Position numbers and translations under genes: made by a program. 33,969 nucleotides of DNA from a virus, in the IMG/VR virus record IMGVR_UViG_3300037156_000294, positions 1 to 33,969 of that record. One strand, 5' to 3'. The notes beneath the pieces are model-generated. The model ran no database searches, was not told the origin of the DNA, and worked only from the letters and a program-made list of their open reading frames with translations. How positions within the stretch are numbered: the stretch's first letter is position 1; every line of letters starts with the position of its first letter. Positions 238 to 32,408 of this stretch are shown here, one piece after another.

Positions 238-363
238 CTACGCCTTAGGCGGGGTAAGGAGGTCGCGGAGGTCGAGGAGGAGTTCAAGGATGAACATAGT
301 GGACATGCGTGCTTTTTGGTCTGATTCGTCCCACGCATCTTCTATTTGCTTTCGTGTTCTCAT
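238..363 (-). CDS. Small hypothetical protein (41 aa)
   Basis: Starts MRTRKQIEDAWDESDQ and ends DLLTPPKA. The N-terminal half is charged. The C-terminal half (FILELLLDLRDLL) is rich in Leu and looks like an amphipathic helix. It follows the degenerate leader mini-gene at 377-412 and is the last gene of the chain of small genes before a promoter-containing gap. No family recognised. Its position in the chain and clean start-stop spacing support it. Confidence 0.5.
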   Translation of the reverse strand: MRTRKQIEDAWDESDQKARMSTMFILELLLDLRDLLTPPKA

Positions 364-376
364 ATCATCTATACCA

Positions 377-412
377 TTAGCTTAGTAAGTTCTCCTCCAA
401 GAAGGTGGTCAT
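377..412 (-). CDS. Degenerate copy of the repeated leader mini-gene (11 aa)
   Basis: Encodes MTTFLEENLLS. The first part, TTFLE, and its DNA (ACCACCTTCTTGGAG) match the three better copies at 958-1008, 1595-1642 and 1844-1894, while the 3' part has diverged. It sits in the same context, a few bases after one small gene and just before the next (ATG at 363). Confidence 0.5.
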   Translation of the reverse strand: MTTFLEENLLS

Positions 413-420
413 AGGTGCTA

Positions 421-582
421 TCATAGTGATGTACCCGTTTCCCCGACCGCTTGAGATTTTCTATTCACTGATACTACACTCCACCCAAATGGTAAAATGT
501 AGTAATCAAACATCTTCGTGGGGATACCTTCTATATTCCCATTCCAGTCCTGCACGAGTGTCATTGGTTCATCGGGACTCAT
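421..582 (-). CDS. Small hypothetical protein (53 aa)
   Basis: Starts MSPDEPMTLVQDWNGN and ends TGTSL. Its ATG overlaps the stop of the upstream 125-aa gene in an ATGA arrangement (579-582), the same coupling seen throughout this operon. That is the main reason to believe so short a gene. The composition is soluble and includes several aromatic residues (FDYYILPFGW). No family recognised. It is followed 8 nt later by the degenerate leader mini-gene. Confidence 0.55.
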   Translation of the reverse strand: MSPDEPMTLVQDWNGNIEGIPTKMFDYYILPFGWSVVSVNRKSQAVGETGTSL

Positions 583-956
583 ATTAGTGCAGTGAGAGCT
601 TCACGAACAGCAACAAGTGTCATCGTGCGACTTGAATGGCTTGTTCTTACTATTTCGCCGTCCTTTGTACTGTCTTGAATTAGGAACGACTTCTCTAAGT
701 TATTTATCGTCTCAATACACATCCCCACTGTTCTTTCTCGTTCTTCTTTATGGTGTTTCCTAATAAACAAACCCACTTCCAGCGCAATTGCGTTAGCCAA
801 ATCGGAGTCCATAACTTTCTTCTTATTTTTCTTACTGCACCAACCGCGAGCGATTGCACCGAGCAATAACGCGTCGTTATCTTGACAGGTCGGACATCCA
901 GCACCTTTCGGAGCAGTCCAGCTCGTGCCATCTAATTTACAAGTTTTTGTTTTCAT
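579..956 (-). CDS. Hypothetical Cys-containing protein (125 aa)
   Basis: Not recognised. The N-terminus has four Cys near residues 6-40 (CKLDG, CPTCQ, WCSKK), which suggests a small metal-binding knuckle. It is followed by a helical, charged region (residues 50-100, including HHKEERERT). The ATG lies 1 nt after the stop of the perfect leader mini-gene at 958-1008, so translation is probably coupled to it. The stop overlaps the next ATG. Confidence 0.6.
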   Translation of the reverse strand: MKTKTCKLDGTSWTAPKGAGCPTCQDNDALLLGAIARGWCSKKNKKKVMDSDLANAIALEVGLFIRKHHKEERERTVGMCIETINNLEKSFLIQDSTKDGEIVRTSHSSRTMTLVAVREALTALI

Positions 957-957
957 A

Positions 958-1008
958 CTATTTATTTAATCTATTAACTCTCTCCAAGAAGGTGGTCGGG
1001 GTCTTCAT
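958..1008 (-). CDS. Repeated leader mini-gene, copy 1 (16 aa)
   Basis: Encodes MKTPTTFLERVNRLNK. Its ATG overlaps the stop of the 63-aa gene upstream (ATGA at 1005-1008), and its own TAG ends 1 nt before the ATG of the next gene. The same peptide and nearly the same DNA recur at 1844-1894 and 1595-1642, with a decayed copy at 377-412. Conservation of both frame and position suggests a translated leader or coupling element rather than a free-standing protein. Confidence 0.6.
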   Translation of the reverse strand: MKTPTTFLERVNRLNK

Positions 1009-1196
1009 AGGGATTTCATTCCTCGGAATATATTGTCGTACTTCTTCATTGAACGTATGTGAGTCTCCGAGTCCATCAAGCTCGGCGTGTTTGGTCGGCA
1101 GTAGCAGTACGAGTCTTCGTTCTCGCGTCCCCATTTCTTTGGGTCTAGCATCTTCGTTGCACCACACATCTGACACTGGTATTTTTTAGTAGTCAT
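1005..1196 (-). CDS. Small zinc-ribbon-like protein (63 aa)
   Basis: Starts MTTKKYQCQMCGATKMLDP. It carries CxxC (QCQMCG, near residues 8-11) and CYC (residues 31-33), which could together bind zinc. It is one of several Cys-pair mini-proteins in this phage. The start lies 3 nt after the TAG of the gene at 1200-1397. The stop overlaps leader copy 1. No specific family recognised. Confidence 0.6.
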   Translation of the reverse strand: MTTKKYQCQMCGATKMLDPKKWGRENEDSYCYCRPNTPSLMDSETHIRSMKKYDNIFRGMKSL

Positions 1197-1199
1197 ACG

Positions 1200-1397
1200 C
1201 TAAGTATACGCCCGATGTCGAATAAAGTCAAATAATACGCCATATTTTGGCACTTTCAGTGGCGTACTTCCTAGTCCGTACAGCCAATAGTTGCGAATAC
1301 TTGTCAAACGGTGGCGTAGGTACGTTAGAGATTTGTGCTCGGCATCGTTCCAAACCTCCTGTGCGACCCGTACAGCATCTTTTTCTCGGCGTTTCAT
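1200..1397 (-). CDS. Small hypothetical protein (65 aa)
   Basis: Starts MKRREKDAVRVAQEVWND and is basic and Arg-rich throughout, with a helical N-terminal half. There are no Cys pairs and no membrane segment. Its ATG overlaps the stop of the upstream gene (ATGA at 1394-1397), which supports this start. Function unknown; the basic character would fit nucleic-acid contact, but that is a guess. Confidence 0.55.
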   Translation of the reverse strand: MKRREKDAVRVAQEVWNDAEHKSLTYLRHRLTSIRNYWLYGLGSTPLKVPKYGVLFDFIRHRAYT

Positions 1398-1591
1398 AGT
1401 GGCTTTGTTGACTTAACCCATATAGCGTACAGCCCACAGTCGGCGCACTTAATTTGCATATACTTCTTACTCTTTTCCTCTGCCCACGCTTGCCATTGAA
1501 GATAACCTTCGGGACAGACGGTATGCTTCTTCCAGTTTTCACAATGGTACGGGTCAATGTACTTCTTCGGTGTGTATAGTTTTTTTGTCAT
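1394..1591 (-). CDS. Small Cys/His protein, possible zinc finger (65 aa)
   Basis: Starts MTKKLYTPKKYIDPYHCENW. Cys/His residues appear in two groups: HC and HTVC in the first half, CADC in the second. This is consistent with a small zinc-bound fold. It is rich in Lys, Trp and Tyr. The start follows leader copy 2 (TAG, CGT, then ATG) and the stop overlaps the next gene. No named family recognised. Confidence 0.55.
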   Translation of the reverse strand: MTKKLYTPKKYIDPYHCENWKKHTVCPEGYLQWQAWAEEKSKKYMQIKCADCGLYAIWVKSTKPL

Positions 1592-1594
1592 ACG

Positions 1595-1642
1595 CTATTT
1601 CATTAATCTATTAACTCTCTCCAAGAAGGTGGTTGGGGTCAT
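1595..1642 (-). CDS. Repeated leader mini-gene, copy 2 (15 aa)
   Basis: Encodes MTPTTFLERVNRLMK, one codon shorter at the N-terminus than copies 1 and 3 and with one changed residue near the end. The ATG overlaps the stop of the coiled-coil gene upstream (ATGA at 1639-1642). The peptide ends 3 nt before the next ATG. The core DNA, CCAACCACCTTCTTGGAG, is the same as in copy 3. Confidence 0.6.
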   Translation of the reverse strand: MTPTTFLERVNRLMK

Positions 1643-1842
1643 AGGTCTATAATCATTTTAATCTCGTTCAGCATTTCAGACATCGCGTCATTTTCTTCGC
1701 GTATGCTATCGTTCTCGTCCTGAAGTTCCTCTACATACTTCTTTGAAAGAGCGAGTTCCTTTCTCATCTTGCCCTCGGTGATATAGCCGTGCCGCTCGCC
1801 GCGCCTTACTGCTCGCTTTGTTTTGTTTCGGGGAGTTTTCAT
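1639..1842 (-). CDS. Small coiled-coil protein (67 aa)
   Basis: Residues 1-25 are strongly basic (MKTPRNKTKRAVRRGERHG). Residues 26-67 form an acidic heptad-like helix (YVEELQDENDSIREENDAM), so a short dimeric coiled coil is likely. A basic tail with a coiled coil could be a small nucleic-acid-binding or regulatory protein, but no family is recognised. The start follows leader copy 3 by 1 nt and the stop overlaps leader copy 2. Confidence 0.6.
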   Translation of the reverse strand: MKTPRNKTKRAVRRGERHGYITEGKMRKELALSKKYVEELQDENDSIREENDAMSEMLNEIKMIIDL

Positions 1843-1843
1843 A

Positions 1844-1894
1844 CTATTTATTTAATCTATTAACTCTCTCCAAGAAGGTGGTTGGGGTCTTCAT
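1844..1894 (-). CDS. Repeated leader mini-gene, copy 3 (16 aa)
   Basis: Encodes MKTPTTFLERVNRLNK, identical in protein to copy 1. It begins 4 nt after the stop of the methyltransferase gene and ends 1 nt before the ATG of the coiled-coil gene. The DNA segment CCAACCACCTTCTTGG can fold into a small hairpin (CCAA with TTGG). The GGAGAGAG inside the mini-gene is too far from the next ATG to serve it directly, so re-initiation after the TAG is the simplest model. Confidence 0.6.
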   Translation of the reverse strand: MKTPTTFLERVNRLNK

Positions 1895-1898
1895 AGGG

Positions 1899-2339
1899 TT
1901 ATTTGTTACTTTTAACATACCTGTCGTACATCACTATCGTTCCAGCCGTTGCTACATTGAGTGAAGACACCCCTGCGCTCTCTATTTCAATCACCCGATT
2001 TCCTTTTTGTAGTTCCATAGGAACACCTCGGTCTTCTGCTCCGAGAACATATATCGCTTGTTTTGGATGATTGAGTTCCTGTAACGGCTTTCCTCCTTGC
2101 TCAATAATTACGATATCAGCTTCTGGCGGTTTTGAACTTAGAAAGTCCTCCCACGTTGCATAGTGGAACAGAGGAACGTGTCGTGTACTCTTTAGCGTAT
2201 CAGTCGGTTGATACTTATATCTCTCTCCAATCGTGAATATGAAATCCGCGCCCATTATGTGAGCTGAACGCCAAATCGTACCCATATTGTCGGTGCATTT
2301 TGGCTCGTATATTCCTATTCCGAAGTATCCTTTTTTCAT
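1899..2339 (-). CDS. SpoU/TrmH-family RNA 2'-O-methyltransferase
   Basis: Predicted SPOUT-fold enzyme that transfers a methyl group from S-adenosylmethionine to a ribose 2'-OH of tRNA or rRNA. All three family motifs are visible: motif 1 NMGTIWRSAHIMGAD (N18, G20, R24), motif 2 YVLGAEDRGVP (G100, E102), and motif 3 around ESAGVSSLNVATAG (S126-N128), which forms the knot. At 146 aa it is a minimal catalytic domain without an added RNA-binding domain, like TrmL-type enzymes. The ATG overlaps the stop of the upstream gene (2336-2339). RNA methyltransferases of this type are uncommon phage cargo. The substrate cannot be read from the sequence. Confidence 0.88.
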   Translation of the reverse strand: MKKGYFGIGIYEPKCTDNMGTIWRSAHIMGADFIFTIGERYKYQPTDTLKSTRHVPLFHYATWEDFLSSKPPEADIVIIEQGGKPLQELNHPKQAIYVLGAEDRGVPMELQKGNRVIEIESAGVSSLNVATAGTIVMYDRYVKSNK

Positions 2340-2770
2340 ACCATCTTCTTAACCACTTCCACAGCGGCAGAGATGCCTGCGTTGAAGCCGATACACTCAT
2401 CGCACTCTTCACGAGCATCAAGACCATCGTGGGAAATATCTTTCATAAGCCCCTCCATCTCTTTGACCAAAGTGGAGAGGGTGGTGGAGACAATGTCGCG
2501 GAGGTCTTTCTTCGTCATCGGTCTTACTCCAAATCCATCGTCTGACGGTAGGAATAAAAACTCGCGCTCATTTGTACCTAATAGAACTCTCACTTGCTTC
2601 TCCCACTCAACAGACTGGCTCACGGGCGATTCTTTGGGGTGGATAGGGAGACCACATTTCATATAATCATTTGTAGATGAGCAGATGCCTTTTTTACAAT
2701 CTGCGCACTCCCTTGGCTTCTTGCACTCACAGCACTTCACTTCGCTTGGGGGGTTGGTCATAGGATCCAT
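2336..2770 (-). CDS. Cys-rich hypothetical protein (144 aa)
   Basis: Residues 10-40 hold a dense Cys cluster (CCECKKPRECADCKKGIC), likely one or two zinc knuckles. Residues 55-80 form a mixed strand region. The C-terminal half is helical, with CDEC near the end. The start codon lies only 5 nt after the GATAAT of the promoter-like box at 2776-2788, so the mRNA may begin at or next to the ATG. It is the first gene of the leftmost small-gene segment. No named family recognised. Confidence 0.65.
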   Translation of the reverse strand: MDPMTNPPSEVKCCECKKPRECADCKKGICSSTNDYMKCGLPIHPKESPVSQSVEWEKQVRVLLGTNEREFLFLPSDDGFGVRPMTKKDLRDIVSTTLSTLVKEMEGLMKDISHDGLDAREECDECIGFNAGISAAVEVVKKMV

Positions 2771-2775
2771 ATTAT

Positions 2776-2788
2776 ATTATCGCACGTT
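2776..2788 (-). promoter_or_regulatory. Promoter-like box AACGTGCGATAAT
   Basis: Best-formed copy of the recurring box, read on the minus strand. It resembles an extended -10 (TGC plus GATAAT). There is no convincing -35 at 17-18 nt. The last codons of the upstream nuclease gene (Asn-Val-Arg-stop) are written by the box itself. The ATG of the next gene begins 5 nt after the box. Confidence 0.6.
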
Positions 2789-3163
2789 AGATGTCGAGAC
2801 AGTAACAGTGGATATCTCTTTCGCACGGCTTATTGTAAGGCTTTTGCGCTTGGAGCGGGAACGTTCGAGGAGCCATGTACCTATACTGATAATGTGAAAC
2901 TCACGTCCTATAAAAGCAACGACACATGCCGGGAACTTCCGTAAATAAATATAGTCCGGCTCGCCGGCCTCACCACGAACCCGAATGAGTACGCCTTTGT
3001 CGCTTGTCACTGCCGTTAAATATTCCGCCTGATGATCCGCAAGGGCCGAAAAGGGGATACTGCTCCCCGACGATTGCTTTATTTCATACGCACACGAGTA
3101 TGATGGGTTGGCACGAAGCCAGTGACGAAACTGTAGGGCGCATTTAGATTCCAGCATAGACAC
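2777..3163 (-). CDS. Putative PD-(D/E)XK nuclease, resolvase-like (128 aa)
   Basis: The segment FRHWLRANPSYSCAYEIKQ followed by SIPFSALADHQAEYL (about residues 13-50) fits small phage and archaeal resolvase-like nucleases. The ExK of YEIKQ would be part of the metal site, and the SIPFSAL-DHQ segment resembles the RecU/Hjc region after it. The C-terminus is basic (ERSRSKRKS). A role in resolving recombination or replication intermediates fits its place after the helicase. It overlaps the helicase gene by 20 nt, and its last three codons lie in the promoter-like box. The family assignment is by eye. Confidence 0.55.
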   Translation of the reverse strand: MSMLESKCALQFRHWLRANPSYSCAYEIKQSSGSSIPFSALADHQAEYLTAVTSDKGVLIRVRGEAGEPDYIYLRKFPACVVAFIGREFHIISIGTWLLERSRSKRKSLTISRAKEISTVTVSTSNVR

Positions 3164-7168: not shown

Positions 7169-7380
7169 AGTTATCTTTCGATTATCTTATTAATTATCTC
7201 AGAGCGACCCTTTGAAATGCTCTGAAGGGGAACCAGTAGATATTCAATGTTTTTAGGCTTTGTTACCCTCTTTCACCATTCTTGATGATGACGACGGTTT
7301 TGAATAAAAATGCCTCTACTGTTATCGGTTATACGTCTAAACCGCTATCCCCCTTCAATGCACTTCTTTCAATAGTGTAG
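7169..7380 (-). other. Long structured leader of the 280-aa gene
   Basis: About 210 nt without a convincing gene lie between the promoter-like box and the ATG at 7168. On the minus strand two small hairpins are visible: CGGTT paired with AACCG across a short loop, and CAGAGC paired with GCTCTG some 40 nt before the ATG. Only an 8-codon mini-frame (MVKEGNKA) is present. This differs from the very short leaders elsewhere, so it may regulate the gene. Confidence 0.35.
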
Positions 7381-7393
7381 ATTATCGCATGTC
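7381..7393 (-). promoter_or_regulatory. Promoter-like box (GACATGCGATAAT)
   Basis: Copy of the recurring AACRTGCGATAAT box with one difference. The stop codon of the upstream zinc-protein gene (Asp-Met-Arg-stop) is formed by the box. No -35 is visible. It would start transcription of the segment from the 280-aa gene to the resolvase-like nuclease. Confidence 0.55.
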
Positions 7394-7588
7394 AGGTAGC
7401 AAGGGGGGCTTGTGGATAGTAACTATGACTAATTCCTTTACATTTCTAAAACGTGTCCAATCTTTCTCTCCAATTGAGTGGATCTGTTCCCCTCCGCACT
7501 TACACCGGCGTGTCACGATAATTGAGAGTCCGCGCTTGCTCGGACCGCCTCGATACTTCCATATATGTTTATGCTCTGCTGTTGACAT
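7382..7588 (-). CDS. Small zinc-ribbon-like protein (68 aa)
   Basis: Starts MSTAEHKHIWKYRGG, at an ATG that overlaps the end of the nuclease gene by 20 nt. A Cys/His set is visible: HKH near the N-terminus, RRCKCGGEQIH in the middle. This suggests one small metal site. The last residues, Asp-Met-Arg, and the stop lie in the promoter-like box. A longer start (101 codons) exists upstream but would overlap the nuclease gene by 119 nt, so the short start is preferred. Function unknown. Confidence 0.6.
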   Translation of the reverse strand: MSTAEHKHIWKYRGGPSKRGLSIIVTRRCKCGGEQIHSIGEKDWTRFRNVKELVIVTIHKPPLLPDMR

Positions 7589-8183: not shown

Positions 8184-8449
8184 GAGAATAAAGAGCGCAC
8201 CCACTCTAGGAACCGCTTCCAATGCGATAGATTTGAGGCAGGCGAGGACTTTGGTGGGGACATGAGTATTGAGGCATTACCGCCAGAGAGAGGGGCTGGA
8301 GCCACATACATACTTGCAGGAGCATGTGCTCTAGTCCTCGCCGCACGACGCATGGACCAATTGAAGCTCGAGAACACGGGGGTATGCTCGCCCCTCTCTT
8401 TCTTCGAAAGGAGTAAACGCGCAAGATGAAGTTTTTGTGAGTGGGTCAT
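8180..8449 (-). CDS. Small basic Ser/Arg-rich protein (89 aa)
   Basis: Starts MTHSQKLHLARLLLSKKERG. It is joined to both neighbours by ATGA overlaps (8446-8449 and 8180-8183), which is strong evidence that this frame rather than the overlapping frames is used. The N-terminal 20 residues look helical. The middle is rich in Ala, Pro, Ser and Arg and probably unstructured. No family recognised. Confidence 0.6.
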   Translation of the reverse strand: MTHSQKLHLARLLLSKKERGEHTPVFSSFNWSMRRAARTRAHAPASMYVAPAPLSGGNASILMSPPKSSPASNLSHWKRFLEWVRSLFS

Positions 8450-9039
8450 ATATTAAATACATTCATCGATCTAACTCGCAACGCCTCCAATCCATGGGCT
8501 TCGAGTTGTCTGATTCTTTCCCGTGTAACTCCCATATGCCTCCCTGTCTCATCGAGAGTATGGGAAATACCATCGTCCAATCCATGCCTGAAACATAAAA
8601 CATTAAATTCCCTCGGGCGAAGAAATCCTCGATCAAGAGCTTTTTGTAGTGTCTTTTTCATTAGTCCAAGTTCGAGTTCTATATGAGGATCAGCAGGAGC
8701 CTCAAGAAGAGGTAACTCAGGAACATCTCCAATCCTCAAATCTGAAGAAGCAATAGTTTTCTCTTTTAAGATATCATCCATCTCACCCCAATTTTTACTG
8801 AATTGAAGAATTTTTTTCGTAAAAATTTCATCAGGATCAACACGGAAAAACTTCGAAATCTTCTCTATCTCATCATCCCAAGGAGCCCGGCGACACTGTT
8901 CAATAAGACTATAACGAGTCGAATTGATTTTCAATTTATCTGCACACTCTTTCTGAGTCAGCCCACGAGTCTCTCGAAGTTGTACGAGGGTAGCCAAATG
9001 CGCACGTATTTTTAAAGTGACTTCAGGTTCTTTTTTCAT
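8446..9039 (-). CDS. XRE helix-turn-helix fused to sigma-70 region 4 (197 aa)
   Basis: Residues about 15-70 are a Cro/CI-type HTH (QLRETRGLTQKECADKL, then INSTRYSLIE). Residues about 145-190 match sigma-70 region 4: LRPREFNVLCFRHGLDD, then HTLDETGRHMGVTRERIRQ and LEALR, the -35-binding helix-turn-helix. Regions 2 and 3 are missing, so it is not a complete sigma factor. It may redirect host RNA polymerase or act as a repressor-activator of phage promoters. The start at 9039 is preferred over 9075 because it overlaps the stop of the 47-aa gene (9036-9039) and has GGAG 8 nt upstream. Confidence 0.85.
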   Translation of the reverse strand: MKKEPEVTLKIRAHLATLVQLRETRGLTQKECADKLKINSTRYSLIEQCRRAPWDDEIEKISKFFRVDPDEIFTKKILQFSKNWGEMDDILKEKTIASSDLRIGDVPELPLLEAPADPHIELELGLMKKTLQKALDRGFLRPREFNVLCFRHGLDDGISHTLDETGRHMGVTRERIRQLEAHGLEALRVRSMNVFNI

Positions 9040-9735: not shown

Positions 9736-9748
9736 TTAAGGAGTATAT

Positions 9749-9761
9749 ATTATCGCATGTT
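9749..9761 (-). promoter_or_regulatory. Promoter-like box AACATGCGATAAT
   Basis: Perfect copy of the recurring box on the minus strand, in the 67-nt gap between the DCL/DUF3223 gene and the zinc-finger-like gene. Unlike at 2776 and 7381, no upstream gene ends in it. This shows the box is kept without coding pressure. Confidence 0.6.
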
Positions 9762-9802
9762 GGATGTAAATCAGGAGGCTGTGGAAAACTCAAGAATGTG
9801 GC

Positions 9803-16117: not shown

Positions 16118-16166
16118 ACCTTGTGCAATTAGGTATCGCGCTAAATTGGCGATATCATTACTCTAT

Positions 16167-16179
16167 ATTATCGCATGAT
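16167..16179 (-). promoter_or_regulatory. Leftward promoter-like box (ATCATGCGATAAT)
   Basis: Copy of the recurring box with a changed first part, on the minus strand. It is placed to drive the leftmost-reading transcript of the divergent region. No good -35 (TTACTC at 18 nt). Confidence 0.55.
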
Positions 16180-16206
16180 AGAAGTAAAGGAGTAAAACAG
16201 AATGAT

Positions 16207-16729: not shown

Positions 16730-17313
16730 ACAATGAAAACGTCAAAATGTCCGTCCAGCCTAGTCCTGCGCTCACGTCCGGCGAGGTTGTACGGCGTAGA
16801 AATCAGACAGCCCTAGCCGTTGAAGCGCGCAAAGCCCGCGCATATGTCCGGCAAAAGTCTGAGGTGCAAGTTGCAAAACAAGTAAAGAAACTACAGCTCG
16901 CACAAGCTGAAACAGTTGCGCGCGCAATGGTATTGCCGGCGGTTGGGCTCACGTTTATATATAAGAAGACTCAATACAAAAATGAGAAAGGGAAAGCCCT
17001 GCGGCAAGAAACGGTGCGCGTTGAAGATCCGAATGAGATACTAACGGCGCTGAACGCCATAAACGATAATGGCGGAGTTGTTGATAATGATGAAAGCGAG
17101 CATGTGTATTACTACATCACGACAAAGGAGCCCGACTATCGCGCCGGTGAAGCGATATTAAATCGTGCCATTGGAAAAGTTGCCGAGAAAGTTGATACCA
17201 CTGTCAATGTGCAATTCTCCCTGCGTGGCCTTGCACGAATCCGGCAAGGTTTGCCCGAGCTTGCGCCGATGCCGGTAGAGGTACGTGTTATAGATATGCC
17301 TAAAAATGAATGA
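16726..17313 (+). CDS. Putative terminase small subunit (195 aa)
   Basis: Residues 1-65 are helical and basic (RNQTALAVEARKARAYV, VAKQVKKLQLAQAETV). A strand pair follows at 70-135. A helical end carries GEAILNRAIGKVAEKVD, which resembles the RAxGKPxxxVD segment common in phage small-terminase and DUF5681-like proteins. Its place one gene before the large terminase is the main argument. Medium confidence only. Confidence 0.45.
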   Translation: MNNENVKMSVQPSPALTSGEVVRRRNQTALAVEARKARAYVRQKSEVQVAKQVKKLQLAQAETVARAMVLPAVGLTFIYKKTQYKNEKGKALRQETVRVEDPNEILTALNAINDNGGVVDNDESEHVYYYITTKEPDYRAGEAILNRAIGKVAEKVDTTVNVQFSLRGLARIRQGLPELAPMPVEVRVIDMPKNE

Positions 17314-17448: not shown

Positions 17449-19065
17449 ATGAGCGCCGGAATCCGCAACACGACGAAGCAAATGGACGGGTACGAGTATC
17501 AGCGTATGACTAATAGCCCTATGTACTGGGTGCGCCAGACGTTTGCCCTTATGCCTCAGCCAGTGCGACCGGAGTATGCAGCACGCTTGCGCTGCGGCTT
17601 GCTATTGCGCGGCAAGGACTGGGATAAGTTCTGTGCGAGCGTAAACTCAAATTGGTTTGACCCGTACGAAGTCGGTCGCCATCTCACATGGCAACAGACC
17701 TTAGTCCTTTATGGAGTTGAGAAAGCTCTCCGGGGGGAGTGCTCTCCGAGAATTTCAGTTGTGTCAGGACACGGCATAGGTAAGTCAATGATTGTTGCAA
17801 TATTAATTCTATGGTTCCTCTTCACGCATATCGAAAGTCAAGTAGCATGTACTTCACCTGGTGCTGAACAAATGTACGACGTGCTCTGGAAAGAGTTAAA
17901 GAAATGGATTGACCTCATGCCAGAAAATTTTAAAAATTTATATATTTGGGAGTCCACGCACATTCGTATGACTGAAGCTCCACAGACATGGTTTGCGAGA
18001 GCTAAAACTTCCTCAAAGGAAAACACAGAAGCACTTGCAGGTATTCACGCCGAATGGGTTCTCGTCGTTGCTGACGAAGCATCCGGGGTTGAGGAGCCAA
18101 TTTTTGAAACCATGGATGGCTCACTTACCGGAGAAAATTTTCTAGTTTTTCTTATCGGAAACGGCACGAGAGCGGAAGGATATTTCTACGACAGTCAGCA
18201 CAAAAAAGATATGGCGCGTTGGCAAACGTATTCATTTAGCGCAGTCGATTCCCCGAGAGTTTCTGCAAAATCGGTCAGCGATTGGAAGAACAAGTACGGC
18301 GACGATTCTGTGCAGTATAAAATTCGTGTGCTCGGAGAGTTCCCGGATGAAGGTGTGATGGATGATGCAGGGTATGTGCAACTGTTCAATGAGACGGATA
18401 TTCATATCGTTCCCGCAGACCGTACTTGGCGACCAGTACCACGAGTGCATGGTGCCTTAGACCCGAGCGGTGAAGGACAAGATTCGAGTGAATGGGCAGT
18501 ACGTGACCGAGTGCGAGCCGCTGTGGTCGCTTCAGAAAAGAAATCAACTCCTGCCGGCTTAGCGCAAACGTCCCTCACAATTTGTGACACCTACCGCATC
18601 GACCCCTACAATTTTGTTGTTGATGCTTTCGGTGCTGGGCATTCAGTTGGTCAGGAGATTGCTATAGCGACTGCTGCACTCGGACCTAATAAGCCAGTGT
18701 GGCGCGTGCGAACTTTAAATACCGGCGAACCCTGTGAAGATGAAAACGATCGTCTTCTCTACATCAATACGAGAGCCATGCTCTACTACCGGATGCTTCT
18801 GTGGGCACGTTCTGGAGGCGAGTTTATGGACTCGCCCGGACTCAAGGATGAACTCTTGAGTATCAAGTTTAAGAGAACCGGATCTGGAAGAATTCAAATA
18901 ATGGATAAGGTGTCGATGAAGAAGCTTGGCCACCGCAGCCCTAACAAAGCTGACGCCCTTTCGCAAACTTTTCTTTCACTCGATGAAATTGTCATATCGG
19001 ATTACCAGAAGGAGAAACAAGAAAGAGCGAAGTTAACATCGGTTGACCTACATGACCCAGTATAG
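17449..19065 (+). CDS. Terminase large subunit (538 aa)
   Basis: DNA packaging motor and headful or site-specific nuclease. The ATPase has Walker A SGHGIGKS (106-113) and Walker B VLVVADEA (204-211). The RuvC-like nuclease has acidic residues at GALDPSGEGQD (D338), VVDAFGAG (D392) and SPNKADALSQTF (D502). Length is normal for the family. The portal gene follows directly. No Shine-Dalgarno sequence is seen before the ATG. Confidence 0.92.
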   Translation: MSAGIRNTTKQMDGYEYQRMTNSPMYWVRQTFALMPQPVRPEYAARLRCGLLLRGKDWDKFCASVNSNWFDPYEVGRHLTWQQTLVLYGVEKALRGECSPRISVVSGHGIGKSMIVAILILWFLFTHIESQVACTSPGAEQMYDVLWKELKKWIDLMPENFKNLYIWESTHIRMTEAPQTWFARAKTSSKENTEALAGIHAEWVLVVADEASGVEEPIFETMDGSLTGENFLVFLIGNGTRAEGYFYDSQHKKDMARWQTYSFSAVDSPRVSAKSVSDWKNKYGDDSVQYKIRVLGEFPDEGVMDDAGYVQLFNETDIHIVPADRTWRPVPRVHGALDPSGEGQDSSEWAVRDRVRAAVVASEKKSTPAGLAQTSLTICDTYRIDPYNFVVDAFGAGHSVGQEIAIATAALGPNKPVWRVRTLNTGEPCEDENDRLLYINTRAMLYYRMLLWARSGGEFMDSPGLKDELLSIKFKRTGSGRIQIMDKVSMKKLGHRSPNKADALSQTFLSLDEIVISDYQKEKQERAKLTSVDLHDPV

Positions 19066-27900: not shown

Positions 27901-29070
27901 ATGAAAAAAAACTTTCTCTCTGTTTTGTTTCTAGGAGCAATTATCTTCTTGGGAACGCACTCACCAGTCCAAGGCGCACGCACTCAAGGGGGTTCAGGTA
28001 GTGGGACAGTGACTTCTGTAGATACAGACACCACCCTCACGGGTGGGACGATTACAACATCGGGAACTCTCGGACTAAATCTCGCTACAGCAAATAAGTG
28101 GACAGCACCTATCAACCTCGCTTCAGGAGTTTTAGGGTATCAAATGGAAGGGAAACTCCTCGCCTACGCCTCCTCAACGAATCAAGACACCATATTTGGA
28201 CTGGGTGCGGGAGGACAGAATGCGACGACGAGTGCGACAGTAACAGGCAATACTGCAATAGGATATTTTGCAATGAACGCGGCGGCAGTAACAGGTTCTG
28301 CTAATACAGCGGTTGGATTTAATGCTCTCAAACTTCTTACGACTGCTTCTGGAATTGGTGGCAATACAGCCGTTGGCGGCTCTGCTGGTGCAAAAATAAC
28401 GACTGGCTATCAAAACACTTCTTTCGGTCAAGGTAGTCTCCAAACTCTTGTGAGTGGTACTTGGAACACTGCCTTTGGAGTTTCCGCTCTCAATTCCACA
28501 ACAGGCAATCACAATACGGGACTTGGAACCCTAGCTGGAGCAAATATAAGTTCGGGAAGTGCCAACATTATTATTGGTTCTTACGCAAATGCCCCAGTCG
28601 CAGGAAACAGCAACCAACTCAACATAGGCAACGTACTTTACGGTACAGGTGTTTATGGAACAAACATCTCCTCCTCCTACCCCACCGCCAACGGCAACAT
28701 AGGCATAGGAACAACGACCCCGTGGGGCAAACTCACACTTAATCTCAACTCTGCTGATACTAACCTCAACGCCTTTCTCATCGCCTCTTCCACTGCAACG
28801 GCAACGACTACGCTATTCTCAATAGATAATGTTGGTAATGCCTATCACGCAGGCAACGTCGGCATCGGGACGACAACAACACGCGTTTCACTCTCTGTTG
28901 TTCAAGCGCCTATCGGTGATGGTACTATTGCAACTACCACTATCCAGATAGGTAATATCTCTACAACTACTTCAAAAAGTAGTATCCAAATGAACAACAC
29001 TGCTGGTGCTGCAGAGTGTCTCTATATCGTCGGGACGACAATCACAGTCACGGCGGGTACATGTAATTAA
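27901..29070 (+). CDS. Secreted fibre-like protein with YadA-head and GIGTTTP repeats (389 aa)
   Basis: Residues 1-26 are a Sec signal peptide (KKNFLSVLFLGAIIFLG core, likely cut after VQGA). Residues 100-240 contain repeats of the trimeric-adhesin head type (NTAIGYFAMNAAAVTG, NTAVGFNALKLL, NTSFGQGSLQTL). Residues 255-330 carry GNIGIGTTTP and GNVGIGTTTT with IASSTATATTTLF between them. Export of a phage protein in this style suggests display on the host surface or an acquired host gene. It starts 1 nt after the previous stop, inside the structural operon. Confidence 0.75.
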   Translation: MKKNFLSVLFLGAIIFLGTHSPVQGARTQGGSGSGTVTSVDTDTTLTGGTITTSGTLGLNLATANKWTAPINLASGVLGYQMEGKLLAYASSTNQDTIFGLGAGGQNATTSATVTGNTAIGYFAMNAAAVTGSANTAVGFNALKLLTTASGIGGNTAVGGSAGAKITTGYQNTSFGQGSLQTLVSGTWNTAFGVSALNSTTGNHNTGLGTLAGANISSGSANIIIGSYANAPVAGNSNQLNIGNVLYGTGVYGTNISSSYPTANGNIGIGTTTPWGKLTLNLNSADTNLNAFLIASSTATATTTLFSIDNVGNAYHAGNVGIGTTTTRVSLSVVQAPIGDGTIATTTIQIGNISTTTSKSSIQMNNTAGAAECLYIVGTTITVTAGTCN

Positions 29071-29076
29071 ACTACC

Positions 29077-29943
29077 ATGAGACGAATCCAATCGACAGCG
29101 CAAGATCCGGATGTCGAGGAATCTCGAGCAGAACTCGAACATCTGGAAGGTAAAAAGAATACCGCGCAGGTAGACGTGCTTGCTATTGCCGCTAATAAGA
29201 AACAGCTTGAGGCTGACTTCGAGGAAGTCAAACAACGTCTTGATGCTCAAATCGAGGCTAAGAAAGAAGAACTTGAAAGCATAACTAACGCCTCTGCTAA
29301 GTATCTTCATGAGATAGCTTCTTTCAAAAGGATAGCTGATAGTGCTCGAGACAAGGCGATTGCAGAACGTGAGCAGGCAGAGAAAGTCTTTGAGATAGTG
29401 AAAGCATCTGTTGCCGGCCAGACAGTCAAAAAGGAAAGTCTCGATGAGGTAATAAAATCGCTCACGTCTATCGAGCATCGATTGCGCTCATCTATCGCAC
29501 ATCTTGCACCGCAAGAGCGTACTTTCGAGGTAAAGAAAGTAAAACTCTTTAAGGAAGTCGTTGATCTCGAAGACAAGATAGCTACTCTCATGGCTAGTCA
29601 CGGGCAAGTACATAGTGCGCACAATGAAGAGAAGAGGGCTCATGAATCGATGGTAGCCTCAAAAGAGGTGGTACAAAAAGAAATCGCTGATTTAAAGGAG
29701 TCCTTAGCATCTCAGTCCCGGCTTCTTTCTGCTGGCGGGAACGAGCTGGTAGACATTCAAAAGAAGCGCGCAGAACATGAAGCAGAAATGCAGAAACGCG
29801 AGAGTGCGGCAAATGCTCGTATGAAGAATGCAGCTATGCTCGAGCAGGCGGTTAATGTGAAGCTTGAGAAATTGAAAGAGGCGGAAGCCGAATTCACCAC
29901 GAGCCACTTGGCTCGGATGGGCTACAAATCCATAGCACCTTAA
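29077..29943 (+). CDS. Long coiled-coil protein (288 aa)
   Basis: Almost wholly helical with heptad pattern from about residue 15 to 275 (KKQLEADFEEVKQRLDAQI, LSAGGNELVDIQKKRAEHE). It has no enzyme motif, no membrane segment and no signal peptide. In this place it could be a tail or fibre assembly chaperone or an internal structural protein. ATG follows the previous stop by 6 nt. Confidence 0.65.
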   Translation: MRRIQSTAQDPDVEESRAELEHLEGKKNTAQVDVLAIAANKKQLEADFEEVKQRLDAQIEAKKEELESITNASAKYLHEIASFKRIADSARDKAIAEREQAEKVFEIVKASVAGQTVKKESLDEVIKSLTSIEHRLRSSIAHLAPQERTFEVKKVKLFKEVVDLEDKIATLMASHGQVHSAHNEEKRAHESMVASKEVVQKEIADLKESLASQSRLLSAGGNELVDIQKKRAEHEAEMQKRESAANARMKNAAMLEQAVNVKLEKLKEAEAEFTTSHLARMGYKSIAP

Positions 29944-29944
29944 T

Positions 29945-30316
29945 ATGTCTCGCACTGGCCTCGCAACAATCAAGATACGAAATAATGGAACTCCGCTCGG
30001 TGTGATCGGGTTCAGTGTGATTGATTTGACTGGTTCACTCTCTGCAACGGATGCTGGAAATAATATCGCTACAATGACCGGATCAGGTGGAGGTACGGGT
30101 ACAAATGTAGCAACTGAAACACTTACAGCAACTCAGTCCGGGACTAGCATTACGCTTGATCTCACTGCTCTGGCTCACACTTTCGTGGCCGTTGAGGTAG
30201 TGTGGAGAAACGGTCAGGCACTTACCCCGATCTCTTCATGGTCACTCGTAGGAAGCACGGTGACAGTTGTTAATGCCGATGCGGGAGACGTGTATCTCGT
30301 GCAGTATACTTATTAA
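29945..30316 (+). CDS. Small beta-rich virion protein (123 aa)
   Basis: Starts MSRTGLATIKIRNNGTPLG. Residues 55-123 (TATQSGTSITLDLTALAHT, FVAVEVVWRNGQAL, VVNADAGDVYLVQYTY) resemble the C-terminal beta domain of phage tail and adaptor proteins. It starts 1 nt after the coiled-coil stop and ends 1 nt before the next gene (TAA-T-ATG at both ends), so it is tightly coupled. Confidence 0.6.
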   Translation: MSRTGLATIKIRNNGTPLGVIGFSVIDLTGSLSATDAGNNIATMTGSGGGTGTNVATETLTATQSGTSITLDLTALAHTFVAVEVVWRNGQALTPISSWSLVGSTVTVVNADAGDVYLVQYTY

Positions 30317-30317
30317 T

Positions 30318-32408
30318 ATGAAAAAATTCCTCCTCATTCTTGCCTCGCTTCTCCTTCCTCTCACGGCTTCGGCTCAAGTATTCGGACTGAATCAGATTGC
30401 TTCTTCTACACAAGCAGTACCTTATTTCGGGGTCTTGATGGGAGATGGTTTTGGAAATCATAAGGCGACAGCATCTTCTTCACCTACAGTGGCATCGATC
30501 ACGGCTACTTCTACAACACGTGCTTCATCATTTCAGCAAGCCTCCACCACACAACTCACCACCACAGGTTCAACGTATCTGGCGACACTCGGAGGCAACG
30601 TTGGCATCGGGACGACCTCTCCAACCCTTCCTCTCTCCGTCACTGCGGTGTCAGGGAACTCCGCATACTTCGCCGGCAACGTCGGTATCGGCACCAATAA
30701 TCCTGGGAGCAAGCTTGAAGTAAATGGTGATATCAAGATCTCCAGCGGCTCAGGAGGGAAGTTGATATTCGCTGATGGCACGACGCTCTCCACCAACTCA
30801 GTCACCGGCAGTGCTGGTCTCACGAGCTGGGGAGACATTAATATGCAGACTGGCGGACAGATTTCCTTCCAGACTGGCAACGGTACCGCCACTTCTTCGA
30901 AGATGATCGTGAGTAATGCAGGCAACGTCGGCATTAGCCAGGCAAGTCCGAACTACCTCTTGGACTTAGGGAATACTCTTGGGGACAAACTCGCAGTATA
31001 TGCGAACGGGGCAAATACTATATATGGATTCGGCATTGCGACAAACAGACTGTATGTGAAAACGAATAATATCGAGATGGCGACATTCAATAGTACTGGG
31101 AACATGGGTCTCGGCACCACCTCGCCGTACGCTCAGCTCTCCATCTCGAATTCCGCAACGACGGCAGCAAACATCCCTCTCTTTGCTATCGCTTCGACCA
31201 CTGGCGGCACATCAACTTCGACCCTCATGACCGTGCTGGCGAATGGGTTTGTGGGAATCGGGACATCGACGCCAACATCGCTTCTGCATATAAATGGCAT
31301 CGATCCAGTGCTCACTATTCAAAACAATCGTCAGGCCGCAGTAGGAAATACCAGCGGCATCTTGCTCAAGGGCACTCTTTCGACTGGCGCGGACGCATTT
31401 ATGGGGAGAATACGAGGAGTGCAGCAATCGACGAGTGCAAACACAGGTGACGTTAACATCTTGACCTACAACAGCGGTTCACTCGGCGAAGTGGCTCGCT
31501 TCACTAGCGGCGGCAACGTCGGCATCGGCACCACGACGCCTTCGATGCCCCTCGACGTCAGCTCTACAAACGCAAATCTTGTCCACCTTGAGAGGAGTAG
31601 CGTAGACGTGGGACAGATAACGGCAAGCAACAACGATCTTGAATTTGGCGCAAACACGAACAATATGCGCTTCACAGTTACATCGGGCAAAGTATATAGC
31701 TTTGCTAGCGGCAACGTCGGCATCGGCACGTCGACTCCGGATGGGAAATTGAACGTAAATGGAGGTAGTGCCTGGACAACTGCAAGCTGGATAAAGAGTC
31801 TTCGTATTGATGGTCTTGGCAGTCTTGAGTTTGGCGGCGGCTCAGCCTCAGCCAAATATGGTCTTGGCAGTTCGGCTGGGTCATTCTATTTGTTCGACAC
31901 CACAGCAGAGGATGGAAGTTCCGTTCCTAACTATCGGCTGGTTGTTAATGGAGGAAATATCGGCATCGGGACGACTTCGCCAGCGTACAAATTGGATGTG
32001 AACGGGGATTTCAGGGTGGGAGTTGCGGGAGCAACGGCGAATAGTCTCTATGTTAATTCAACAACAGGCAACGTCGGCATCGGGACGACGAGTCCGGCAC
32101 AAGCACTGACTGTTGCGGGAGGTCTTGGATTCTATGGAACAATTCCCTTTCTCAGCTCTTGCGGAACATCACCTGCGATAACAAAGGGAAGTACTGATTC
32201 TGCGGGGGAGCTGACTCAAGGAACAATCTCAACAGGCTGTACCATCACATTTGCTGTTGCGAAAACAAACACCCCATTCTGCACAGTGACTGACCAAGCG
32301 GGACTTGTGTTCTCATATGTAACCTCTGCCTCGGCAATTACGGTCACCAACATCGGAGCACTCAGTAGTACTAAGATGAATTACACCTGTATTGCTAACA
32401 ATAATTGA
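30318..32408 (+). CDS. Secreted GNVGIGTT-repeat fibre-like protein (696 aa)
   Basis: MKKFLLILASLLLPLTASAQ is a clear signal peptide with likely cleavage after ASA. Nine units of the GNVGIGTTSP type follow across the protein (for example GNVGIGTTTPSMPLDV), separated by beta-rich spacers with Ser/Thr-rich stretches. The last 95 residues form a separate end domain with four Cys (SCGTSPAIT, GCTITF, FCTV, CIANNN). Similar repeats are known from Parcubacteria surface proteins and phage fibres. The start at 30318 gives the signal peptide; an in-frame ATG at 30267 lies inside the previous gene. Confidence 0.78.
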   Translation: MKKFLLILASLLLPLTASAQVFGLNQIASSTQAVPYFGVLMGDGFGNHKATASSSPTVASITATSTTRASSFQQASTTQLTTTGSTYLATLGGNVGIGTTSPTLPLSVTAVSGNSAYFAGNVGIGTNNPGSKLEVNGDIKISSGSGGKLIFADGTTLSTNSVTGSAGLTSWGDINMQTGGQISFQTGNGTATSSKMIVSNAGNVGISQASPNYLLDLGNTLGDKLAVYANGANTIYGFGIATNRLYVKTNNIEMATFNSTGNMGLGTTSPYAQLSISNSATTAANIPLFAIASTTGGTSTSTLMTVLANGFVGIGTSTPTSLLHINGIDPVLTIQNNRQAAVGNTSGILLKGTLSTGADAFMGRIRGVQQSTSANTGDVNILTYNSGSLGEVARFTSGGNVGIGTTTPSMPLDVSSTNANLVHLERSSVDVGQITASNNDLEFGANTNNMRFTVTSGKVYSFASGNVGIGTSTPDGKLNVNGGSAWTTASWIKSLRIDGLGSLEFGGGSASAKYGLGSSAGSFYLFDTTAEDGSSVPNYRLVVNGGNIGIGTTSPAYKLDVNGDFRVGVAGATANSLYVNSTTGNVGIGTTSPAQALTVAGGLGFYGTIPFLSSCGTSPAITKGSTDSAGELTQGTISTGCTITFAVAKTNTPFCTVTDQAGLVFSYVTSASAITVTNIGALSSTKMNYTCIANNN
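30594..32096 (+). repeat. Dispersed DNA repeat encoding GNVGIGT
   Basis: GGCAACGTCGGCATCGG and close variants occur about nine times in this gene, several identical over 17 or more bases (for example near 31510, 31711 and 32067), and again near 28692 and 28854 in the other signal-peptide gene. Such near-identical units could recombine and change repeat number within or between the two genes. Confidence 0.6.

Follow-up and report, generated by a model that had tools for sequence, protein, structure and literature searches.

In bicistronic expression designs, a synthetic leader cistron with its stop codon beside the next start delivers ribosomes to the second gene, and a strong Shine-Dalgarno sequence lies inside the leader, near the second start. 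A natural case of a short border ORF is ORF-11 of the class 1 integron attI1, which couples cassettes lacking initiation signals, and in which the encoded peptide matters little (PMC8876359). Coupling through ATGA, in which stop and start overlap at -4 nt, is found across many prokaryotes (PMC6728339, PMC12548453), and is most efficient at spacings of -4 to +3 nt, declining by 30-40 nt (PMC12548453). Cluster K mycobacteriophages carry SAS and ESAS, short asymmetric repeats that are mostly in one orientation and are kept before different gene families; the SAS is a sequence of 13 nt, GGGATAGGAGCCC, that closely precedes the start, and its description mentions no mini-ORF (PMC3203893). The intergenic repeats of halovirus HF2 turned out to be promoters (PMC8707807). 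No phage element comparable to the one analyzed here was described in the open-licence papers that we searched.

We analyzed IMG/VR virus record IMGVR_UViG_3300037156_000294 (33,969 bases, referred to as a whole as the window), in which a mini-ORF is repeated between the small genes of an accessory operon. By analogy, the element appears to be best read as working like ORF-11 while being unrelated to it and not a member of its class: as in the case of ORF-11 and ORF-17 of attI1 and the short ORFs of attC, a border ORF would act by termination and re-initiation, which we infer here for the phage element. However, ORF-11 is single, stands at the head of the array and has a Shine-Dalgarno sequence of its own, whereas the phage mini-ORFs have none before them, are entered through ATGA and occupy several joins. 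No integron integrase was found among the genes scanned, which were a part of the full gene sets. In layout, the element resembles the cluster K SAS, as repeats lie at gene starts and are kept while the genes differ, but it comprises a mini-ORF from the start through the body and often up to the stop, and its sequence does not resemble the SAS. Membership in that family was rejected, as the core of the element lies ~16-27 nt before most of the following starts. In contrast to the bicistronic designs, GGAG is ~16-27 nt off in most copies, and is well placed only ahead of an inner ATG in a fused copy of one of the phages (G1, see below). In ordinary ATGA coupling two genes overlap directly, whereas the element is an extra mini-cistron, repeated and shared, that spans a gap. 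The HF2 repeats likewise lie between viral genes, but they bear promoters, and the element has no conserved promoter pattern.

Accessory Operon and Its Element Copies

The operon occupies positions 2770 to 238 of the window. Its features are given below from the first gene to the last; G1 and G2 are the two other phages in which the element was found.

2773..2797, minus strand: promoter-like repeat CTAACGTGCGATAATATA directly before gene X, the putative operon promoter
2336..2770, minus strand: gene X, first gene of the operon; it probably starts at the second ATG (2761), as does its G2 counterpart (MTNP...)
1899..2339, minus strand: cargo gene, SpoU-family RNA methylase (2'-O-methylase), 146 aa (Pfam PF00588, E=1.5e-20)
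1844..1894, minus strand: element copy W4, mini-ORF MKTPTTFLERVNRLNK and stop; core at 1868-1882
1639..1842, minus strand: 67-aa gene, MKTPRNKTKRAVRRGERHGY..., common to G1
1595..1642, minus strand: element copy W3, mini-ORF MTPTTFLERVNRLMK and stop; core at 1619-1633
1394..1591, minus strand: cargo gene past copy W3, 65 aa, Cys-containing, no confident family
1200..1397, minus strand: cargo gene, 65 aa, ATGA-coupled to the preceding gene
1005..1196, minus strand: cargo gene, 63 aa, MTTKKYQCQMCGATK...
958..1008, minus strand: element copy W2, mini-ORF MKTPTTFLERVNRLNK and stop; core at 982-996
579..956, minus strand: cargo gene past copy W2, 125 aa, no known family
421..582, minus strand: cargo gene, 53 aa, ATGA-coupled
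377..424, minus strand: element copy W1, mini-ORF MIAPMTTFLEENLLS and stop, 15 codons; core at 395-409
238..363, minus strand: last cargo gene of the operon, past copy W1, 41 aa

The joins of the operon are ATGA overlaps or gaps of a few nucleotides, except at the four element sites, where the gaps are 47-57 nt. A search of the window DNA found the 15-nt core, ACCACCTTCTTGGAG, exactly at these four places on the minus strand, while every other site in the window had at least 2 mismatches to it, and the count of near matches was equalled in none of the dinucleotide shuffles of the window (0/100). Each core sits within a mini-ORF of 15-16 codons. Clearly, the repeated mini-gene that an initial annotation had recognized at 958-1008, 1844-1894 and 1595-1642 is real, as it can be read in the DNA of the minus strand, has an exact core, and is not reproduced by shuffling; the strand is an addition to that annotation, which named none. 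The copy at 377-412, which the same annotation regarded as decayed, proved to be intact: the interval covers the part from an inner ATG to the stop (MTTFLEENLLS and stop) of a mini-ORF of 15 codons that starts with the ATG at 424 (377-424).

The annotated geometry, with a start at the upstream stop and an end 1-13 nt before the next start, was confirmed. The entry spacing is -4 nt in three copies and +4 nt in copy W4, and the exit spacings are +1, +1, +3 and +13 nt. Copy W4 begins 4 nt past the end of the SpoU-like methylase gene and ends 1 nt ahead of the start of the 67-aa gene. The start of copy W3 is in an ATGA shared with the stop codon of the 67-aa gene, and its end is 3 nt ahead of the next start; copy W2 is joined by an ATGA overlap to gene 1005-1196 and ends 1 nt ahead of gene 579-956. 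Copy W1 is again entered through ATGA, its ATG at 424 lying over the stop codon of gene 421-582, and its exit of +13 nt is bridged by MV and MI, each followed by a stop, which form a gapless path to the next start, the ATG at 363 (MI being read directly from the sequence). The N-termini of the window mini-ORFs vary by whole codons (MKTP-, MTP-, M-). Copies W2 and W4 differ by one synonymous change (CCG/CCA) in the mini-ORF, and, being 98% identical over 64 nt, are recent duplicates of one another.

Carriers of the Element and Replacement of Cargo Genes

A scan of viral contigs with the 15-mer ACCACCTTCTTGGAG gave 83 matches, mostly by chance inside other sequence. When the surroundings of the matches were read, the element context was recognized beyond the window only in the two following contigs:

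IMGVR_UViG_3300050139_000157, 18,872 nt: carrier G1 (L018), four element copies
IMGVR_UViG_3300038829_000037, 38,064 nt: carrier G2 (L086), one element copy

Together with the four copies of the window this makes nine copies in three phages, all of them in the same orientation relative to the genes (9/9). Neither a 23-mer query nor the synonymous-codon patterns of the element revealed further carriers. An 18-mer of the element had three matches in genome contigs, all by chance, a blastn search of phage and plasmid collections returned weak matches only and no carrier, and a search of Rfam gave no match. The helicase relatives L005 and L006 do not contain the element, and a query with the primase did not find relatives. 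Among the collections searched, the carriers are thus only these three phages, and no half-decayed copies were present in the examined sequence of their genomes.

Proteins common to the three phages are very few (the 67-aa gene product in the window and G1, parts of gene X, and HNH-type endonucleases), and their terminases match different families. The genes that follow the element copies in the three phages are not homologous, so the mini-gene is kept while the following gene changes, the point that the initial annotation had proposed to check. The two other phages also exclude a unique recent duplication as the whole explanation of the repeat, although the pair W2 and W4 did arise by recent duplication.

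The clearest boundary of homology is at the 67-aa gene, whose versions in the window and G1 are identical in 96% of amino acids and 90% of DNA. The match between 1615-1844 of the window and 17538-17766 of G1 (90% DNA identity) spans this gene and the element behind it; one of its edges is at the start codon of the 67-aa gene and the other is within the element. The junction of copy W3 is the same as that at 17541-17555 of G1, and past the shared element the window continues with the 65-aa Cys-containing gene, and G1 with a short membrane-protein-like ORF. Similarly, positions 391-415 of the window equal 17141-17165 of G1 over 25 nt, and the flanking genes differ on both sides. Recombination at the element can be inferred from the one clear boundary at the 67-aa gene and from the replacement of cargo. 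The tail of copy W3 has 1 difference to that of G2 and 2 differences to the tails of W2 and W4, a weak hint of exchange.

Gene X of the three phages, which is otherwise diverged, contains a DNA patch of 26-32 nt, GAATCGCCCGTGAGCCAGTCTGTTGA (2599-2639 in the window, 14304-14329 in L018, and 4751-4776 in L086), suggesting mosaicism inside genes too.

Conservation of the Element and RNA Structure

The core was invariant in all aligned copies (9/9), third codon positions included, in carriers that had themselves been found via the exact 15-mer; variants did not emerge either when these genomes were searched with looser criteria or in the synonymous-codon scans. In contrast to the core, the tail of the element is variable among the nine copies, with mostly amino-acid-changing substitutions. 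An invariant core without synonymous variation and a tail in which amino acids are altered argue that conservation concerns the DNA or RNA sequence and the geometry of reading, rather than a functional peptide.

In two copies there is no free mini-ORF: one forms the N-terminus of a 77-aa ORF of G1 (MTTFLEETMKDKLLKEF...), and the other forms the end of a 41-aa ORF. In one copy of nine, that of G1 with the core at 17541-17555, the ATG is out of frame through a 1-nt difference, and this copy continues in frame into another open stretch (TTFLERELRKETVRNTLWF...). The out-of-frame copy is bridged anew by ORFs of 31 and 16 codons, chained to the next mini-ORF. As one copy is re-bridged in this way and two are fused, what is conserved would be the DNA core and a chain of coupled ORFs, and not a fixed free peptide. 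The initial annotation had named free breaking of the frame in relatives as evidence against its reading; a broken frame was seen at one copy, yet even there the chain is closed by other mini-ORFs.

RNA folding of seven junctions yielded one that was better than its shuffles (z -2.25), and the consensus fold of the junctions had 3 invariant pairs and no covariation. A leader-peptide attenuator was rejected, as alternative RNA structures near the downstream start were not supported; the lack of RNA structure and the variable peptide tail together speak against attenuation by a leader peptide.

Stop-Start Chain and Shine-Dalgarno Usage

We assessed the bridging of gaps of 20 nt or more, counting a gap as bridged when ORFs running from ATG to stop crossed it in steps of -8 to +6 nt. 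By this measure, all long gaps in the accessory operons of the three phages were bridged (8/8, compared with ~0.85 expected from shuffled gap sequences), although these gaps are not independent, as 7/8 hold element copies and there are about five distinct arrangements, which weakens the contrast. Elsewhere in the three genomes, 3/18 same-strand gaps of 20-120 nt were bridged compared with 1.26 expected. Shuffled gaps are bridged fairly frequently (0.006-0.27 per gap). All eight accessory-operon gaps have the geometry of a coupling cistron, with a start near the upstream stop and a stop near the downstream start, and the mini-ORFs convert gaps of roughly 40-57 nt into steps that are mostly within -4 to +3 nt. 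One of the bridges is the 41-aa ORF that ends with the element. Moreover, the G1 gap at 17768-17803 is bridged by a mini-ORF of unrelated sequence (MNPRLPDVRDKG and stop). Judged from this unrelated bridge and from the re-bridged frame-broken copy, it appears to be the chain that is under selection.

Shine-Dalgarno words before starts did not exceed the background in the three genomes (0.16/0.21, 0.28/0.27 and 0.13/0.20), and the upstream regions are AT-rich in all three. By inspection, no Shine-Dalgarno sequence was found ahead of the mini-ORF starts, and entry into the mini-ORFs would therefore need re-initiation.

Probable Coupling Mini-Cistron and Alternative Explanations

On balance, the element is probably a cis-acting, portable translational-coupling mini-cistron located between the small accessory genes of a long co-transcribed operon. 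A ribosome would end the upstream gene at the TGA that overlaps the ATG of the mini-ORF (ATGA), re-initiate on the mini-ORF without a Shine-Dalgarno site, translate its 12-16 codons and stop 1-6 nt ahead of the next ATG, or overlapping it, and the downstream gene would be re-initiated via the AU-rich tail. The mini-ORF would thereby take ribosomes over a gap of ~50 nt. The constant core would provide short shared DNA at gene borders, and accessory genes could be swapped between dissimilar phages with the coupling retained. Translation of the mini-ORF, re-initiation and coupling are what the arrangement of stops and starts points to, although the element may instead act without being translated. 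The initial annotation, which offered a translated leader that controls or couples translation or, alternatively, a recombination cassette, is partly supported by these data: both coupling and recombination find support and do not exclude each other, whereas control by a leader peptide does not, as no RNA structure was found.

The alternative that survives best, although we regard it as rather unlikely, is a neutral or recombinational homology patch, or a favoured nuclease target, that marks gene borders and in which the mini-ORF is incidental. Such a patch would be in line with the identity of the core at the DNA level and its lack of synonymous variation, with the fusion of two copies into longer ORFs and with the closeness of the W3 tail to G2, and also with other short DNA patches (26-33 nt) within gene X of all three phages and with HNH-type endonucleases, which are encoded by 3/3 of them. 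However, it does not explain why the layout from upstream stop to downstream start is found in a single orientation in nearly every copy, or why the G1 gap at 17768-17803 is filled likewise by unrelated sequence, and half-decayed copies were not found in the examined sequence of the three genomes.

It is still less probable that the core is bound by a transcription or translation factor, e.g., the sigma-like protein encoded at 8446-9039, with each cargo gene having its own initiation. The position just before gene starts, the AT-rich tail and TTGGAG as a possible -35 box would fit a promoter or start signal, the window phage encodes a protein with HTH and sigma-70 region 4, and the HF2 repeats set a precedent (PMC8707807). 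Nevertheless, when the aligned copies were inspected by eye, no -10 sequence common to them was present downstream of TTGGAG at the proper spacing, and a promoter-bearing intergenic repeat was rejected, as there is no conserved -35/-10 pair at constant spacing. In addition, all copies are within operons right behind a stop and none is at an operon head, the sigma-like protein has no blastp match in G1 or G2, and the evident promoter-like motif of the phage differs in sequence. That the mini-ORFs are remnants of genes that began with MTTFLE... and formed one family, their 5' ends having survived while the bodies were deleted or replaced, is least plausible of all, as the 77-aa ORF of G1 and the open stretch in frame with its frame-shifted copy, which might suggest it, have nothing in common outside the element and so reveal no parent gene, a synonymous-codon scan found no intact parent, and repeated ending 1-6 nt before the next start would not be expected.

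Returning to the coupling mini-cistron, we tentatively consider a bolder version of it, less likely than the coupling itself, in which the element is an integrase-free counterpart of attI and ORF-11 in Shine-Dalgarno-free phages, with one sequence acting both as the homology for swapping accessory genes among unrelated phages and as the coding linker that keeps arrivals coupled. Small accessory genes pass freely among phages, and one that lands in a gapless, Shine-Dalgarno-free operon still needs to be translated; if true, the proposed linker would explain how expression survives such swapping. A portable mini-cistron would also tag recently exchanged accessory genes by sequence and would be a natural counterpart to synthetic leader cistrons. 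Length cut-offs in gene callers miss such mini-ORFs.

Other Features of the Three Phages

The promoter-like repeat CTAACGTGCGATAATATA closely precedes several genes of the window (at 2773-2797, 9746-9770, 16164-16188 and 7378-7402 on the minus strand, and at ~21727 on the plus strand) and was not found in G1 or G2. It lies so near to 2770 that the mRNA could be nearly leaderless. Behind the accessory operon, the three phages have promoter-like sequences and ~150-250 nt of non-coding DNA followed by a gene with a strong Shine-Dalgarno sequence (1-240 of the window on the minus strand, ~4030-4330 of L122 and ~15990-16330 of L120). The motif CCACAGAGCCGAG in this region is common to the window and G2, in a weak alignment, and the non-coding stretch is possibly a non-coding RNA or a structured leader.

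The protein encoded at 8446-9039 of the window (minus strand) combines HTH_3 at its N-terminus with sigma-70 region 4, and may be a phage sigma-like regulator. The cargo gene of G1 at 13350-13840 of L018 (minus strand) encodes YdcK-type beta-solenoid repeats (SGNAWV...), a repeat type that also occurs in hypothetical proteins of other phages. At 28691-32095 of the window, a 31-nt repeat that encodes GNVGIGTTSP-like peptides occurs 11 times across large late genes; it is also found in G1 and G2, and the copies are probably tail-fibre repeats.
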